DNA from: Natronolimnohabitans sp. A-GB9
Lineage (GTDB): Archaea > Halobacteriota > Halobacteria > Halobacteriales > Natrialbaceae
Direction of reading: 5' to 3'
NCBI RefSeq assembly: GCF_030848565.1
Contig: NZ_JAVDDV010000002.1
Location: 372,001 to 436,000 of the forward strand
Length of the DNA: 64,000 bases
The notes beneath the pieces were generated by a model. It was not told the origin of the DNA. It made no database searches and was given only the letters and a program-made list of their open reading frames with translations. Each line of letters begins with the position of its first letter. Within the stretch, counting starts at the first letter, position 1. The position numbers were made by a program, and so were the translations under genes. This document shows, piece after piece, positions 1 through 6,657 of this stretch.

Positions 1-1064
1 AGTGCGTTCGGAATCGCGGCGCCGACGTGGGCGCTGCCCATCGTCGCGATCGGTGAGGCAACGTTGTGCATCGCGACCGGCACGTAGTAGAGGTCCGCCA
101 GGTCGGCGATCTTCCGGGTTTCGCGCATCCCACCGACCTTGGGCATATCGGGGGCGATGATGTCGACTGCCTGCTCCTCGAGGAGACGGCGCTGGCCGTG
201 CTTTCGGTAGACGTTCTCGCCGACGGTGATCGGCGTCGTGGTGTGCTGGGAGACCTCGCGTTGCACGTCGTGGTTCTCCGGCGGGACGGGGTCCTCGAGC
301 CACCAGACGTCGTACTCCTCTAATCGCTTTGCCAGTCGCTTCGCGCTGCCGCCCGAGAACGTCCAGTGACAGTCGAAGGCGACGTCGGCCCGCGAGCCGA
401 CGCGGTCGGTGATCGCCTCGACGATCGAGGCTTTGTGTTCGATCTCGGGAGCCCGGAGGTGCCGGTTCGCGCGGTCTTTCTCGTGGCCGGAGGGGACGTC
501 GAGGTCGAACTTCAACGCGTCGTAGCCCAGTTCCTCGACGACGCGTTCGGCCTCGTCGGCACACGCGATCGGATCGGCCTCTTCTTCGGTGTGACAGTCA
601 CAGTAGACCCGGACTTCGTCACGATATTTGCCGCCCAGCAGTTGATAGGCGGGCACCTCGAGGATCTTGCCGACCAGGTCGTGGAGGGCAACCTCGATAC
701 CCGAAATGGCGGTGACAGTGACGCCGCCGATCGAGCCCTCGCCGGACATCTTCTGGACGAGGTGTTCGGTCAGGCGGTCGATATCCAGCGGATTCTCACC
801 CTGCAGGAACGGCACCATTCGTTCGATCAACTCCGGTGCGCCGGCCCCCCAGTAGGCTTCACCGGTGCCGACGATCCCGGCGTCCGTGTAGATCCGCACG
901 AGCGTCCACGGGAAGTTGCCGTCGATCATCGTCGTCTGGACGTCCGTGATCTCGATATCGCGGCCGTCGCCGCGCTCGCGCGTGATGTTCATCGTCTCGG
1001 CCGAGAGATCTCGCATCGTATACTCCGCGTTCGGATCGCGTAGCGTCGTGTAGTCGACACCCAT
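1..1064 (-). CDS. Sugar-acid dehydratase, enolase superfamily, copy 1 (partial)
   Basis: This gene runs off the left edge of the window, so about 354 N-terminal residues are visible. It is a close paralogue of the complete gene at 4542-5774 and shares its enolase-superfamily (mandelate racemase subgroup) layout: an N-terminal capping domain, then a barrel with the metal-binding Asp and two Glu. Haloarchaeal relatives include gluconate and xylonate dehydratases, which turn aldonic acids into 2-keto-3-deoxy acids. The start at 1064 (MGVDYTTL) is supported by a TATA-like box about 25 bp upstream. Bases 361-1010 are identical to 5071-5720 of the second copy, while both flanks have diverged. The Eda-type aldolase just upstream suggests use in an Entner-Doudoroff-like route. 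The exact substrate cannot be told from sequence. Confidence 0.85.
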   Translation of the reverse strand, partial: MGVDYTTLRDPNAEYTMRDLSAETMNITRERGDGRDIEITDVQTTMIDGNFPWTLVRIYTDAGIVGTGEAYWGAGAPELIERMVPFLQGENPLDIDRLTEHLVQKMSGEGSIGGVTVTAISGIEVALHDLVGKILEVPAYQLLGGKYRDEVRVYCDCHTEEEADPIACADEAERVVEELGYDALKFDLDVPSGHEKDRANRHLRAPEIEHKASIVEAITDRVGSRADVAFDCHWTFSGGSAKRLAKRLEEYDVWWLEDPVPPENHDVQREVSQHTTTPITVGENVYRKHGQRRLLEEQAVDIIAPDMPKVGGMRETRKIADLADLYYVPVAMHNVASPIATMGSAHVGAAIPNA

Positions 1065-1085
1065 ACCATAAATACTAACTCCGAA

Positions 1086-1096
1086 GATAGTAATAG
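1086..1096 (-). promoter_or_regulatory. TATA-like box of dehydratase copy 1
   Basis: On the minus strand the stretch CTATTACTATC lies 22-32 bp upstream of the ATG at 1064. This is the spacing expected for an archaeal TATA box of a leaderless mRNA. It gives copy 1 its own promoter although the aldolase gene lies upstream in the same direction. Confidence 0.4.
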
Positions 1097-1161
1097 TTTC
1101 CATCAGGACGGCATCGACGGGGGGCGACTCGCGTTCGGCGATCTCGAGATCGTGATCGAGA

Positions 1162-1809
1162 TCAGTCGCGTCGTGCTGCGTCGACTGCGTCGACGAACGC
1201 GGCGGCACGTTCCCGGACGCGGTCCATGTCGCCGGCTTCGATCGCGTCGTAGTCGACGAGCGCGCTGCCCGCGCCGACGGCGACGGCACCGGCCTCGAAA
1301 AACGACTCCACGTTGTCGGGGGAGACCCCACCGGTCGGAATCACGTCGACGTCGCCGAGCGGACCGCGGATCGCGCCGATGTGGCCCGGGCCGACGGTCG
1401 AGGCGGGGAACAGTTTGAGAACGTCCGCACCGGCCTCCATCGCCGTGACGGCTTCCGTCGGTGTCATGACTCCGGGTGCCACGAGGACGCCCTGCCGATT
1501 GCAGAGTTCGACGGTCTCGACGTTGGTATGTGGCGAGACCACGAACTCGGCGCCTGCATCGATTACCGACTGGGCCGTCGGCGCGTCGAGGACAGTTCCT
1601 GCACCCACGATCGCGTCCGATAGCTCGCGGTCGACGGCTGCGATCCGTTCGCTCGCGCGCGTCCCGTCCGCGGTGATCTCGAGCGCGTCGACGCCACCCT
1701 CGTGGATCGCTCGAGCGACGGGTACGATCAGATCTTCGTCGATCCCACGGAGCACGGCGACGACGCCGCTTTCGGCGAGGCGGTCTCTGACCGTCCGGAC
1801 GTCAGTCAT
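1162..1809 (-). CDS. eda: 2-keto-3-deoxy-(6-phospho)gluconate aldolase, class I Eda type
   Basis: This 215-residue protein has the length and layout of bacterial-type KDPG aldolases, single-domain TIM barrels that split 2-keto-3-deoxy-6-phosphogluconate into pyruvate and glyceraldehyde-3-phosphate. The Schiff-base lysine is visible at about residue 132 in the motif LKLFPAS, and the catalytic glutamate at about residue 44 in ALEIT. A phosphate-binding GG motif follows near residue 160 (PTGGVSPDN). The gene is upstream of, and codirectional with, dehydratase copy 1 (97 bp gap) and downstream of the trehalase gene. The set points to glucose or sugar-acid breakdown by a semi-phosphorylative Entner-Doudoroff route; the sugar-acid kinase is not in this window. 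Preference for the phosphorylated or free substrate is unknown. Confidence 0.85.
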   Translation of the reverse strand: MTDVRTVRDRLAESGVVAVLRGIDEDLIVPVARAIHEGGVDALEITADGTRASERIAAVDRELSDAIVGAGTVLDAPTAQSVIDAGAEFVVSPHTNVETVELCNRQGVLVAPGVMTPTEAVTAMEAGADVLKLFPASTVGPGHIGAIRGPLGDVDVIPTGGVSPDNVESFFEAGAVAVGAGSALVDYDAIEAGDMDRVRERAAAFVDAVDAARRD

Positions 1810-1959
1810 CGGCGATCCCTCCGAGCGCGTGGTCGTGATCGATCATCACGACGGGCCGTTCGCGCCCCCGCTCAAAGAAGTTTACTCGAGGGCGAAAAAC
1901 AGAACTTTCGGCGATCCGTCGAAACCGATCGACGCCACCGTGTTCGTCTACGAGGTGTC

Positions 1960-2012
1960 TACTGTCGGACAGCACTGTTCACCGATGGTTCACTGACTGC
2001 TGTCCGGCAGTA
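1960..2012. repeat. Family A fold-back element, internally deleted copy (A1)
   Basis: This 53-bp element has the terminal inverted arms TACTGTCGGACAGCA and TGCTGTCCGGCAGTA of the 108-bp family A. It keeps the adjoining GTTCACCGAT and GGTTCACTGAC segments but lacks the central hairpin. It lies 10 bp past the stop codon of trehalase. Confidence 0.75.
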
Positions 2013-2022
2013 GCAGGTATCG

Positions 2023-3558
2023 CTACGGAGTCGGCTCCTCGAGCCGTACGTCCTCGTCGCGTTGAAGCGCGACGACGACCGCGTTGGTCCATCCAAACCC
2101 GTCCTGAAGGGGGTACTCGCCGCCGCCAGCCTCGCGATCGGGATCGATCACGTCGTACTTTTCGACCAGCTTCCCGGCGTCGTCGAAGACGCGCCGGTTG
2201 AGCGTGAGCCACCGCCGCTCGATCTCGTCGGCGAGGTCATCGATCCCGTATCGGCGAAGCCCTTCGACGGCCATCCACTGCAACGGCGCCCAGCCGTTCG
2301 GCGCGTCCCACTGCTCGCCGGATCGGGTCAGCGTCGTCACGAGCCCGCCGCGCTCGAGGAACCGTTCCTCGAGTGTAGTCGCCACCGCCGTCGCCTGTTC
2401 GTCCGACGCCAGTCCGAAGTACAGCGGCGCAACCGCCGCCGACGACCACCGATCGGTCCGGCGACTCGCCGTCCAGCAGTAGTCGAAATAGAAGCCATCG
2501 TCCGGATCCCAGCAGTACTCGTCGACGGCCCGTCGACGGCGGTCGGCCGCCGCCCGATACTCGTCTGCGACTGTCGGTTTATCGTGGGCCGCGAACCACT
2601 TCGCGAGTTTCCGTTCGACGTCGTACAGCGCCGCGTTGAGGTCCACCGGAACGAGATCCGTCGTCCGGATCGACGCGAAGTCGTCTGGATCCGCGAGCCA
2701 CCGACTGCTGAAGTCCCACCCCGACTCACACGCTGCGCGGATGTGGCGGTAGAGTTCGGGTCGCTCCGTGGGCGCAACGTCGGCGGCGATTTCGCGATCT
2801 TCTCGATACGACTCCTTTCGTGGCGCGGACTCGTCGTCCCAGTATCGGTTCAGCACGTGATCTCCGATCTGGACGACACGCCGGTGAGCGGGATCGGTCC
2901 GGTCGACGTCGTCGCTGCCGTCCATCCAGAACGAGTACTCCTGCTCGAGTCGCGGCAGATACGGCGTGGCCGCGTCCACGCCGTTTCGTCGGACGAGTAT
3001 CGACACCATCCGACAGAACAGCGGTAGCTGCGACCGAGTCCGGTAGTACGTCCGATTGCCGTTCGGGACGAACCCGTATCGGTCGACGAGGCTGGCGACG
3101 TTTTCGACCATGTCGACGACGGCGTCGAACCGACCGGCCGCGGCCAACCCCTCCGCGACGAAGTAACTGTCCCAGTAGTACACTTCGCGAAATCGACCGC
3201 CGGGGACGACGTGTGGGTTCGGCAGCGAAATCAGCGTGTCGTATTCGTTCTGTTTCGTCTGTTCCCGTCTGAGATGTGACCAGAGCTGATCGATGTGTGC
3301 TTCCATCGATCGCTCGCCGTCGATCACGTGTGGCTCCGTCTCGCCGGCGACGTCGAAATGGGTCTCGACGAACGCATGAAGATCGAATCCCGGCTCGTCT
3401 CGTTCGTCCGCGAACGACCGTGCGATCCGACGCGGATCCGACAGCGGCACGCAGTCGACGAATCGCTTCGAATCCGCGAAGACGCCGTTGCGCTGGACGG
3501 CAGTAAAGAGCTCTCCCTCGAGATGAGAGTCAGCGATAGCAGTCGTTTCCGATTCCAT
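2023..3558 (-). CDS. treA: Trehalase, glycoside hydrolase family 37
   Basis: This 511-residue protein belongs to the inverting GH37 trehalases, which hydrolyse alpha,alpha-trehalose to two glucose molecules. Both family signatures are present: PGGRFREVYYWDSY near residue 119 and QWDAPNGWAP near the C-terminal end of the (alpha/alpha)6 barrel. The segment ESGWDFSSRW carries the expected catalytic Asp. No signal peptide is seen, so it is probably cytoplasmic and acts on internal trehalose, a compatible solute in some haloarchaea. The start at 3558 is preferred over an ATG at 3585 because a TATA-like box (3588-3596) then sits about 30 bp upstream. The glucose produced could feed the neighbouring dehydratase and aldolase genes. 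Confidence 0.9.
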   Translation of the reverse strand: MESETTAIADSHLEGELFTAVQRNGVFADSKRFVDCVPLSDPRRIARSFADERDEPGFDLHAFVETHFDVAGETEPHVIDGERSMEAHIDQLWSHLRREQTKQNEYDTLISLPNPHVVPGGRFREVYYWDSYFVAEGLAAAGRFDAVVDMVENVASLVDRYGFVPNGNRTYYRTRSQLPLFCRMVSILVRRNGVDAATPYLPRLEQEYSFWMDGSDDVDRTDPAHRRVVQIGDHVLNRYWDDESAPRKESYREDREIAADVAPTERPELYRHIRAACESGWDFSSRWLADPDDFASIRTTDLVPVDLNAALYDVERKLAKWFAAHDKPTVADEYRAAADRRRRAVDEYCWDPDDGFYFDYCWTASRRTDRWSSAAVAPLYFGLASDEQATAVATTLEERFLERGGLVTTLTRSGEQWDAPNGWAPLQWMAVEGLRRYGIDDLADEIERRWLTLNRRVFDDAGKLVEKYDVIDPDREAGGGEYPLQDGFGWTNAVVVALQRDEDVRLEEPTP

Positions 3559-3587
3559 ACCGTTCGTAGAAGTTCTTACAAACATAG

Positions 3588-3596
3588 TTAAAATAG
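3588..3596 (-). promoter_or_regulatory. TATA-like box of treA
   Basis: CTATTTTAA on the minus strand lies 30-38 bp before the ATG at 3558 and overlaps the alternative ATG at 3585. It therefore decides the start in favour of 3558 with a very short leader. Confidence 0.4.
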
Positions 3597-4040
3597 ATTC
3601 TGAATGTGTTTCGCGACGTTCCGCTTCGGTAGACGGTAATATGAAGGTGACAGGATTGGCCAGAAAGTGGCCGTGAGCCGACGCGAATCCCGATTCGAGT
3701 ACTCGTTCGTCTTCGAGTCGGCCGACTCGAGGAGAGGCCGGGAGTACGCTACGGCGCTATCGGAGCGCTACGGTGGGTCGTCTCGAGTCTCGAGTTTCCC
3801 GCCGTTGGATCGGCGATTTCGCCACCGACGCGCCGTCTCACAGATTCGGCTGCCCCACGTTCGTCGAAAGTCCAAATCGAATTCGATCGCTCGGACTCGA
3901 GTGATTGCAGGAGAGAATAGCACGCGTTCTTCATTCAGAAAGACGACTGAAATCGAAACAGACGATTCGGTCACTACACGTGCTAGTTTGCAACCATATT
4001 GATAATAAGATATATCTAGATAAAGGAATCAATTCAGTTT
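3597..4040. other. Intergenic region without a supported gene
   Basis: The first 350 bases are ordinary GC-rich DNA with no convincing coding frame. From about 3900 the DNA becomes AT-rich, ending in a TA-rich run near 4000-4020 that may be the promoter of the small membrane protein at 4041. Confidence 0.5.
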
Positions 4041-4262
4041 ATGGACAAAAGAATAACCGTTGGATTGTTCTTTTTGACTGTTGGTCTACTGGGAGTAATA
4101 GTGTCTCTCGCGTATGCTTTTTCAGGAGGCAATCCGTTCGAGACAGAACCCTTCAGCCGTCGGAATCCCGGTTATCTGACTTTTACGTCGCTCGGAGGAG
4201 TAGCACTCGGAGTTGCCCTCTTACTCGATATTGGATCTGTTGCAGATATCATACTCGACTGA
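4041..4262 (+). CDS. Small two-helix membrane protein, unknown function
   Basis: The 73-residue product has a positively charged start (MDKR), a hydrophobic helix at about residues 6-27, a polar loop with FETEPFSRRNPGY, and a second hydrophobic helix at about residues 48-66. No family is recognised. An AT-rich promoter-like stretch precedes it, and its base composition is lower in GC than its neighbours, which may indicate acquired DNA. It is isolated between treA and dehydratase copy 2. It could be an orphan small membrane protein; its reality rests on the start context and the clean two-helix profile. Confidence 0.5.
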   Translation: MDKRITVGLFFLTVGLLGVIVSLAYAFSGGNPFETEPFSRRNPGYLTFTSLGGVALGVALLLDIGSVADIILD

Positions 4263-4459
4263 TTTCAGTCCTGTACTTCCGGGCGTGCCCTCAACTGCTT
4301 GCCGAGATCAGCGTACATACGTTCCCTGTGCTTACTGCGAGACAGTATACCGCGAGACAGCAGTCGTACGGAGCGGTGTGCCGATATCCCGATACGACCG
4401 CAGGACGGGTCACAGTCGCGCCGGCACTGACGGACAACGATCCGCCGAGTTCGCTCCGG

Positions 4460-4544
4460 TCATACGGTCTGCTGTCGTCACGTCCCGCCCACCGCCGACC
4501 CCGCCCTGGCGATCGGCGGGCGATCGGGACAGCAGTCCGTCTCA
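4460..4544. repeat. Family B fold-back element (B1)
   Basis: An 85-bp element with outer arms TCATACGGTCTGCTGTC and GACAGCAGTCCGTCTCA and an inner pairing of CCGCCGA with TCGGCGG. The last three bases (TCA, 4542-4544) are the TGA stop codon of dehydratase copy 2. The same coincidence is seen at B3, B4 and B5. Confidence 0.7.
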
Positions 4545-5774
4545 GTCGAACAACTCCTCGCCCTCGATCATGTGCTCTTCGACGGCGTCCATGTCGAGGG
4601 TCACGCCGAGGCCAGGCGCTTCGGGAACCTCGATGTAGCCGTCTTCGATGACGTCCTCCTCGACGAGATCTCCCCACCAGTCGAGTTCGTAGGAGTGGTA
4701 CTCGACGGCGAGTGTGTTCGAGACCGCCGCGCCGACGTGAGCGCTGCCCATCGTCGCGATCGGTGAGGCAACGTTGTGCATCGCGACCGGCACGTAGTAG
4801 AGGTCCGCCAGGTCGGCGATCTTCCGCGTTTCACGCATCCCGCCGACCTTGGGCATATCGGGGGCGATGATATCGACTGCCTGCTCCTCGAGGAGGCGAC
4901 GCTGGCCGTGGGTCCGATAGACGTTCTCGCCGACAGCGATCGGTGTCGAGGTATGCTGGGAGACCTCGCGTTGCACGTCGTGGTTCTCCGGCGGGACGGG
5001 GTCCTCGAGCCACCAGACGTCGTACTCCTCTAATCGCTTTGCCAACCGTTTCGCACTGCCGCCCGAGAATGTCCAGTGACAGTCGAAGGCGACGTCGGCC
5101 CGCGAGCCGACGCGGTCGGTGATCGCCTCGACGATCGAGGCTTTGTGTTCGATCTCGGGAGCCCGGAGGTGCCGGTTCGCGCGGTCTTTCTCGTGGCCGG
5201 AGGGGACGTCGAGGTCGAACTTCAACGCGTCGTAGCCCAGTTCCTCGACGACGCGTTCGGCCTCGTCGGCACACGCGATCGGATCGGCCTCTTCTTCGGT
5301 GTGACAGTCACAGTAGACCCGGACTTCGTCACGATATTTGCCGCCCAGCAGTTGATAGGCGGGCACCTCGAGGATCTTGCCGACCAGGTCGTGGAGGGCA
5401 ACCTCGATACCCGAAATGGCGGTGACAGTGACGCCGCCGATCGAGCCCTCGCCGGACATCTTCTGGACGAGGTGTTCGGTCAGGCGGTCGATATCCAGCG
5501 GATTCTCACCCTGCAGGAACGGCACCATTCGTTCGATCAACTCCGGTGCGCCGGCCCCCCAGTAGGCTTCACCGGTGCCGACGATCCCGGCGTCCGTGTA
5601 GATCCGCACGAGCGTCCACGGGAAGTTGCCGTCGATCATCGTCGTCTGGACGTCCGTGATCTCGATATCGCGGCCGTCGCCGCGCTCGCGCGTGATGTTC
5701 ATCGTCTCGGCCGAGAGATCCCGCATCGTATACTCCGCGTTCGGGTCGCGCAGCGTCGTGTAGTCGACTCCCAT
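4542..5774 (-). CDS. Sugar-acid dehydratase, enolase superfamily, copy 2
   Basis: This is a complete 410-residue member of the enolase superfamily, mandelate racemase subgroup. Such enzymes abstract a proton next to a carboxylate; haloarchaeal relatives dehydrate gluconate or xylonate to 2-keto-3-deoxy acids. Visible catalytic features are K185 in LKFDLD, D231 in FDCHWTF, E257 in LEDPVPPENHD, E283 in VGENVY and H333 in MHNVASP, matching the Lys, three metal-ligand and His positions of the family. The start at 5774 (MGVDYTTL) is chosen because it aligns with copy 1 and a TATA-like box lies 24-32 bp upstream. Residues about 19-234 are encoded by DNA identical to copy 1. The stop codon lies within repeat B1. 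Substrate assignment (gluconate, xylonate or another aldonate) is open. Confidence 0.9.
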   Translation of the reverse strand: MGVDYTTLRDPNAEYTMRDLSAETMNITRERGDGRDIEITDVQTTMIDGNFPWTLVRIYTDAGIVGTGEAYWGAGAPELIERMVPFLQGENPLDIDRLTEHLVQKMSGEGSIGGVTVTAISGIEVALHDLVGKILEVPAYQLLGGKYRDEVRVYCDCHTEEEADPIACADEAERVVEELGYDALKFDLDVPSGHEKDRANRHLRAPEIEHKASIVEAITDRVGSRADVAFDCHWTFSGGSAKRLAKRLEEYDVWWLEDPVPPENHDVQREVSQHTSTPIAVGENVYRTHGQRRLLEEQAVDIIAPDMPKVGGMRETRKIADLADLYYVPVAMHNVASPIATMGSAHVGAAVSNTLAVEYHSYELDWWGDLVEEDVIEDGYIEVPEAPGLGVTLDMDAVEEHMIEGEELFD

Positions 5775-5797
5775 ACCCAGTCGGTCGCTCGCAGACA

Positions 5798-5806
5798 AGT
5801 AATAAC
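5798..5806 (-). promoter_or_regulatory. TATA-like box of dehydratase copy 2
   Basis: GTTATTACT on the minus strand lies 24-32 bp upstream of the ATG at 5774, which fits a leaderless transcript and supports that start. Confidence 0.45.
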
Positions 5807-6000: not shown

Positions 6001-6513
6001 TTACTCGGAGAGCTCTACGTCGAGATACTCCTCGAGGGCGTCGATCAGTCCGCCGCCGACGCCAGCCTGTGTGGCCCGTCCCTGTTCGATCGCGATGAGG
6101 TCTTTCTCGCGCGCGCCGAGTTCTTCGGCGAGTTCCTCTCGTTGCAGTCCGGCCTCCTGGCGGGCCGCTTCGAGCTTGTCACCGTAGTCGCTGACGAGAT
6201 ACGGTAGCGGATCGTCGTCGTAGTTCGTTCCCTCTTGCTCCCAGTGTTCGGAGTCGCCGTCCCAGACGGGGTTGGCCTTGGCGACGTTCTGGGCCGCCTT
6301 CTGCTTGCGGCTCGGCTCGTCGTCGCGACCCTCGTCCTGAGAGTCGCGCTGGGACTGGGTGCGCTGAGTGTCGTCGTGAGGTGCACAGTCCGGACAGACC
6401 TCGAGTTCGGCGCCGGCGACGCTGGCGAGGCGAAGCGAATCGCTTTCTGCACCGCAGAGTTCGCAATTCGTCCCGCCGCCGCCGGACGACGAACCGGTCG
6501 AATACTTAGCCAT
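6001..6513 (-). CDS. mbf1: Archaeal multiprotein bridging factor aMBF1
   Basis: This 170-residue protein starts with a glycine/serine-rich tail and a zinc ribbon (CELCGAE, then CPDC, about residues 17-41). An acidic/basic linker follows, then a C-terminal helix-turn-helix of the Cro/CI type (about residues 105-160; LEAARQEAGLQREELAEELG). This is the layout of archaeal MBF1, a conserved factor linked to transcription and ribosome binding. The start at 6513 (MAKYSTG) is preferred over an upstream ATG because the family begins MAKYxTG. The gene stands alone, with tRNA-Leu upstream and repeat A2 downstream. Confidence 0.9.
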   Translation of the reverse strand: MAKYSTGSSSGGGGTNCELCGAESDSLRLASVAGAELEVCPDCAPHDDTQRTQSQRDSQDEGRDDEPSRKQKAAQNVAKANPVWDGDSEHWEQEGTNYDDDPLPYLVSDYGDKLEAARQEAGLQREELAEELGAREKDLIAIEQGRATQAGVGGGLIDALEEYLDVELSE

Positions 6514-6657
6514 GGTATCCTTTGGCAACTGCCGCATTTCAAATCTCCGCCTTGCAGGAGGTCAGTTCCGTGTGACCTCCCCGCAGGCGCCGATAGAAAA
6601 GAAAGTGTTTTGTAATACCACTGGCTACGATTGAGTGCAGTAAGACAAAGACAGCGA

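Follow-up and report, generated by a model that had tools for sequence, protein, structure and literature searches.

An identical 650-bp tract in two haloarchaeal dehydratase genes points to recent gene conversion between old paralogues

The window analyzed here, a 64,000-nucleotide stretch of the Natronolimnohabitans sp. A-GB9 genome, contains two dehydratase genes, the only copies in that genome, that share a long block of identical sequence and differ on either side of it. How did such a block arise inside two diverged homologues, and what does it reveal about the history of the pair? The original prediction, made from the window alone, was gene conversion between paralogues. We compared the two copies with each other and with their counterparts across the family.

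By sequence, both ORFs are enolase-superfamily, mandelate racemase-type sugar-acid dehydratases. Copy 2 matches PF02746 and PF13378 (the N-terminal capping domain and the barrel domain), both above cut-offs. Among mandelate-racemase-type dehydratases with solved structures, it aligns best with 2qq6, whose acidic residues line up with D231, E257 and E283, the three barrel-strand metal ligands. No NCBIfam equivalog cut-off was reached (the best matches were galactonate dehydratase, 218 vs 311 bits, and gluconate/galactonate dehydratase, 212 vs 750), and the family models thus do not settle the substrate. The likeliest role is probably gluconate dehydratase of the semi-phosphorylative Entner-Doudoroff pathway, which is predicted from gene context because KDPG aldolase is a neighbor in the window and glucose dehydrogenase is one in relatives. 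The glucose dehydrogenase of the window genome lies on the same contig, ~67 kb away (G000:C12:304659-305747). Copy 1 runs off the start of the window, and its remaining portion was recovered from the contig.

Table 1 Features of the two dehydratase loci, in window positions.
Feature	Position	Strand	Remarks
Copy 1, A-site dehydratase ORF, visible part	1-1064	-	Remaining ~170 bases precede window position 1 (L003:5826-7064); KdgA and HtrA/Spt5 are syntenic
Copy 1, unconverted part inside the window	1-360	-	ORF bases 705 onward; identity to copy 2, 93%; contains the A/B-distinct stretch, 105-296 (ORF bases 769-960)
Identical tract, copy 1	361-1010		ORF bases 55-704, codons 19-235
Predicted TrmB-type operator	1077-1092	-	TACT-N7-GAGTT, 28 bp upstream of the copy 1 start
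KDPG/KHG aldolase (kdgA/eda-like)	1162-1809	-	Upstream neighbor of copy 1
Trehalase	2023-3585	-	Between the two copies
Copy 2, B-site dehydratase ORF	4542-5774	-	410 aa; synteny with PurF and HVO_2718-like regulator
Copy 2, unconverted 3' part	4542-5070	-	A/B-distinct stretch at 4815-5006
Identical tract, copy 2	5071-5720		Ungapped comparison
Altered element corresponding to the operator	5786-5801	-	TACTTGTCTGCGAGCG, upstream of copy 2; fails the operator pattern
HVO_2718-like regulator	6001-6537	-	Marker of the conserved B site

An ungapped comparison of the two copies at an offset of 4710 gave zero mismatches over 650 bp, exactly as predicted, and positions 360 and 1011 are the first to differ on either side. 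Many differences had also been claimed within 30 bp of each border; this holds on the left, where there are five (335, 336, 339, 345 and 360), but not on the right, where the number is a modest two (1011 and 1035, followed by 1041 and 1059). The codons covered agree with the residues of about 19-234 originally given, and they include the catalytic residues D231 and H233 and leave E257, E283 and H333 outside. Coding sequence flanking the tract is ~92% identical between the copies, and the ~580 ORF sites outside it hold 46 differences in 43 codons, 33 of them synonymous. Homology between the copies is essentially the ORF itself, beginning three bases before the ATG and stopping at the stop codon. 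From window base 1068 onward the two copies are unrelated.

Chance is excluded as the source of this identity. When site-specific rates taken from relatives were used as a null, the longest identical run had a median of 109 bp and reached at most 337 bp in 100,000 trials, and the analytic probability of zero differences across the tract stretch was 4e-15. Fourfold sites supported the claim that the exchange was recent: none of 113 differ between the copies inside the tract, compared with 14 of 81 downstream and with 38 of 109 between the A copy of the window and that of its sister species. The tract is thus a sharp-bordered identical block, synonymous sites included, inside diverged homologues.

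A search of 125 genomes of the family revealed that the two genes occupy two conserved sites. KDPG aldolase and glucose dehydrogenase genes usually come before the A-site gene (copy 1), and genes for an HtrA-like protease and Spt5 come after it; the B-site gene (copy 2) has PurF and an HVO_2718-like regulator in front of it. Both copies were present at these sites in 19 genomes. In 17 of these, one contig carries both, separated by 3.7-17.8 kb; G085 has them on separate contigs and G081 has them ~2 Mb apart. In many of the other family genomes a single copy is present, at either the A or the B site. Both sites are syntenic across genera in the 19 two-copy genomes, which places the duplication before speciation. 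These results provide good support for the conclusion that the two ORFs are old paralogues at two conserved sites.

Despite this synteny, copies often cluster by genome. In a maximum-likelihood tree of the full ORF (53 rows), the site label switched between A and B 12 times, at least eight of them on well-supported branches, and none of the bootstrap trees recovered A or B as one clade. The window pair was joined with 100% bootstrap support, as was the sister-species pair, and a single clade of all A copies was rejected for ORF bases 61-660 (p-AU 8e-8). Over ORF bases 61-360, the paralogue in the same genome was nearer than every orthologue from the same site for 18 of 38 copies. The proposed check, comparing both copies in relatives, also came out as expected of conversion, with other two-copy genomes showing identity blocks of their own. 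The blocks measure 650 bp in the window, 176 bp in G083 (from ORF base 304), 158 bp in G018 (from 983), 119 bp in G082 and 1128 bp in G081 (from 25), and the longest identical run anywhere in comparisons between genomes was 162 bp. G081, a closed single-contig genome, shows near-complete homogenization of the ORFs (L115 and L116): its promoters and first 24 ORF bases differ and the remaining ORFs are nearly identical. Conversion there appears to have run from B to A, because the A copy carries B-type residues. In several lineages, then, paralogues within a genome are more alike than syntenic orthologues. The trees and identity blocks together make a well-supported case that the window tract is one of many conversion events and that the pair evolves in concert across the family.

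We considered three other sources of the identity. Because the window genome is a draft of 72 contigs, paralogue collapse must be weighed, in which a short-read assembler merges similar paralogues into one consensus over the stretch they share. The pair does trouble assemblers, as the sister-species draft breaks inside both paralogues, leaving 89-bp duplications with a single N joining each. In the window, however, a segment with 15 differences between exact matches of 86 bp (31-116) and 91 bp (244-334) was not collapsed; moreover, the contig is 474 kb long and the window contains no N. Collapse is improbable for the window tract, and it is unlikely as a general cause because closed G081 has the 1128-bp identical run with its copies 2 Mb apart.

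A recent duplication, in which this lineage produced one copy from the other and the ends later diverged or were replaced, would account for the window paralogues resembling each other more closely than they resemble any orthologue. It fails to explain the identity, because the sites are syntenic across genera and yet the copies often group by genome. Promoters and neighbors also differ by site, and the contrast in fourfold differences between the tract and the sequence downstream does not fit one single date. Synteny and two divergence dates within one gene thus led us to reject this explanation, which we consider very improbable. The encoded protein is conserved across the family, as would be expected if strong purifying selection on protein or mRNA held the stretch identical with no exchange. 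Between the A copies of the window and the sister species, however, 80 of the 650 bases of the tract stretch differ, over a third of its fourfold sites among them, and in relatives the mean divergence of this stretch equals that of the 3' part (ratio 0.97). Synonymous divergence between species contradicts such selection, to which we attach a negligible probability. We conclude that gene conversion, with a probability of roughly 90%, recently copied up to 650 bp of one old paralogue onto the other, as the latest of many such events.

We also tried the idea of a shared insertion spread by conversion, raised by 30-aa tandem duplications in both sister-species copies (L023) and one of 28 aa in L034. 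These duplications are assembly joins, because in each an exact repeat of 89 or 83 bp is joined by a single N, and the idea was rejected. Contig-joining errors of this kind in public drafts (L023:410-1729, L023:4080-5405 and L034:6001-7320) could be mistaken for real insertions. A separate match in the family member G033 (C1:2713318-2714598) is ~50 bases longer than the usual 1230, a hint of a small insertion in that dehydratase.

The direction of transfer in the window genome leans from A to B without reaching statistical significance. After rate correction, the tract matched the 3' part of the A copy (difference -0.0006) more closely than that of the B copy (-0.014), with both 95% intervals including zero. 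Residue 218, a single site, also speaks for transfer from A to B: Ile occurs there in 16 of 25 A copies and in two of 28 B copies, one of the two being the B copy of the window. In the mechanism we propose, the A copy would have been the donor, and copying would proceed by ectopic (non-allelic) homologous recombination between the paralogues. The likely route is strand-invasion repair, possibly aided by haloarchaeal polyploidy; efficient gene conversion is documented in haloarchaea (PMC8223754). Conversion stays within the ORFs, mostly at ORF bases ~61-660 and the last ~150 bases, and paralogue identity is mostly retained in the promoters, the first ~24-54 bases and the stretch at ~769-960.

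This uneven pattern emerged from the ratio of paralogue to A-A orthologue divergence across the 19 pairs, which was 1.0 in the first 60 ORF bases, 0.54-0.82 at bases 61-600, 0.87-1.25 at 601-1080 and 0.66-0.77 past base 1080. Segment trees gave a similar picture. ORF bases 61-660 required 15 label changes, no better than shuffled labels (13.1), and bases 661-1080 required nine; bases 769-960, around the metal ligand Glu283, required five, below all 500 shuffles, although this segment was picked after viewing the profile and its statistics are partly post hoc. Even this segment has been converted at times, because a single A clade was rejected there as well (p-AU 0.002). At residue 280, Thr is found in the A copies of 18 of the 19 genomes and Ala in the B copies of 15; the two are paired in 14 genomes, G081 has Ala in both copies, and single-copy genes mostly retain Thr. 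Arg317 is replaced in B only in 14 of the 19. These comparisons lend support to the claim that the C-terminal metal-site part stays distinct, in that an A/B signal is kept at ORF bases ~769-960 in relatives. A consistent A/B difference at the C-terminus itself (FDEA vs FD) was rejected, since lengths in other genomes do not track site class. Persistence of the distinct stretch may reflect either selection or a local bar to recombination; in our proposed mechanism, selection would be the reason.

Gene conversion and concerted evolution are already known, and the dehydratase pair adds another instance. Its closest archaeal parallel is mtrA-1/mtrA-2 of methanogens, paralogues in conserved synteny in which one part of the gene is repeatedly homogenized by conversion and another stays distinct (PMC4632066). 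The dehydratase pair is likewise syntenic, with one part converted repeatedly and one kept distinct. The two systems differ in pathway and lineage; furthermore, the distinct part of mtrA is a different transmembrane domain gained by fusion, whereas the dehydratases are homologous over the whole ORF and their distinct stretch is internal, near a metal ligand. A survey of long-lasting recurrent concerted evolution in prokaryotes listed 26 genes, seven of them archaeal and all of these from methanogens (PMC6053082); the words haloarchaea and dehydratase are absent from its text. The dehydratase pair matches the definition used there (syntenic orthologues, with within-genome paralogues more alike, in several species). 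In Haloferax volcanii, intermolecular gene conversion equalizes chromosome copies in an allelic process whose tracts are often several kb (PMC8223754). That process is also homologous gene conversion in a haloarchaeon, but the dehydratase exchange is between paralogues, with identity blocks that range from ~100 bp to 1.1 kb and stay within the ORF. In the open-licence PubMed Central papers searched, we found no report of gene conversion or concerted evolution for this dehydratase. Few archaeal cases are documented in which a protein-coding pair evolves in concert throughout a family, and our results add a haloarchaeal central-metabolism enzyme with events of differing age and length in 19 genomes, one of them between sites 2 Mb apart. 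For questions of tract length, distance and selection, the pair serves as a natural experiment, and differences between the two enzymes may lie in the parts that escape conversion. Unless synteny is taken into account, orthologue trees of this dehydratase will mislead.

The promoters differ in a putative regulatory site. In Halobacterium, the TrmB site is TACTN7-8GAGTA (PMC4158304). We scored the pattern TACT-N7-8-[GA]AGT, which is close to that site, and found a predicted operator ~28 bp upstream of the start in 16 of 19 A copies and in 20 of 20 single-copy B-site genes; none of the B copies of the 19 pairs carries it (0/19; A and B copies in L098-L116). Its chance occurrence is 0.25% per 45-bp window, and the Fisher p for its distribution, 9e-8, overstates the evidence because the pattern was loosened after the sequences were viewed and the rows are related. 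The unconverted parts suggest divergent roles for the A and B enzymes. A tentative reading, to which we give somewhat less than even odds, is that split roles resist homogenization: A would keep the ancestral TrmB-type operator, B would have lost it and have a distinct stretch at the third metal ligand, and selection would purge conversions there while the rest of the gene is copied again and again. If so, conversion maps the part of the enzyme that matters for the A/B difference.

As a further observation, relative L106 (2604-13191) has several genes separating its B copy from the aldolase: one for a TrmB-family regulator, sugar ABC transporter genes including the ATPase, and one of alpha-amylase type. 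The window genome has no close relative of this regulator (best 31%), and in the window the trehalase occupies the interval where L106 has these regulator, transporter and amylase-type genes.
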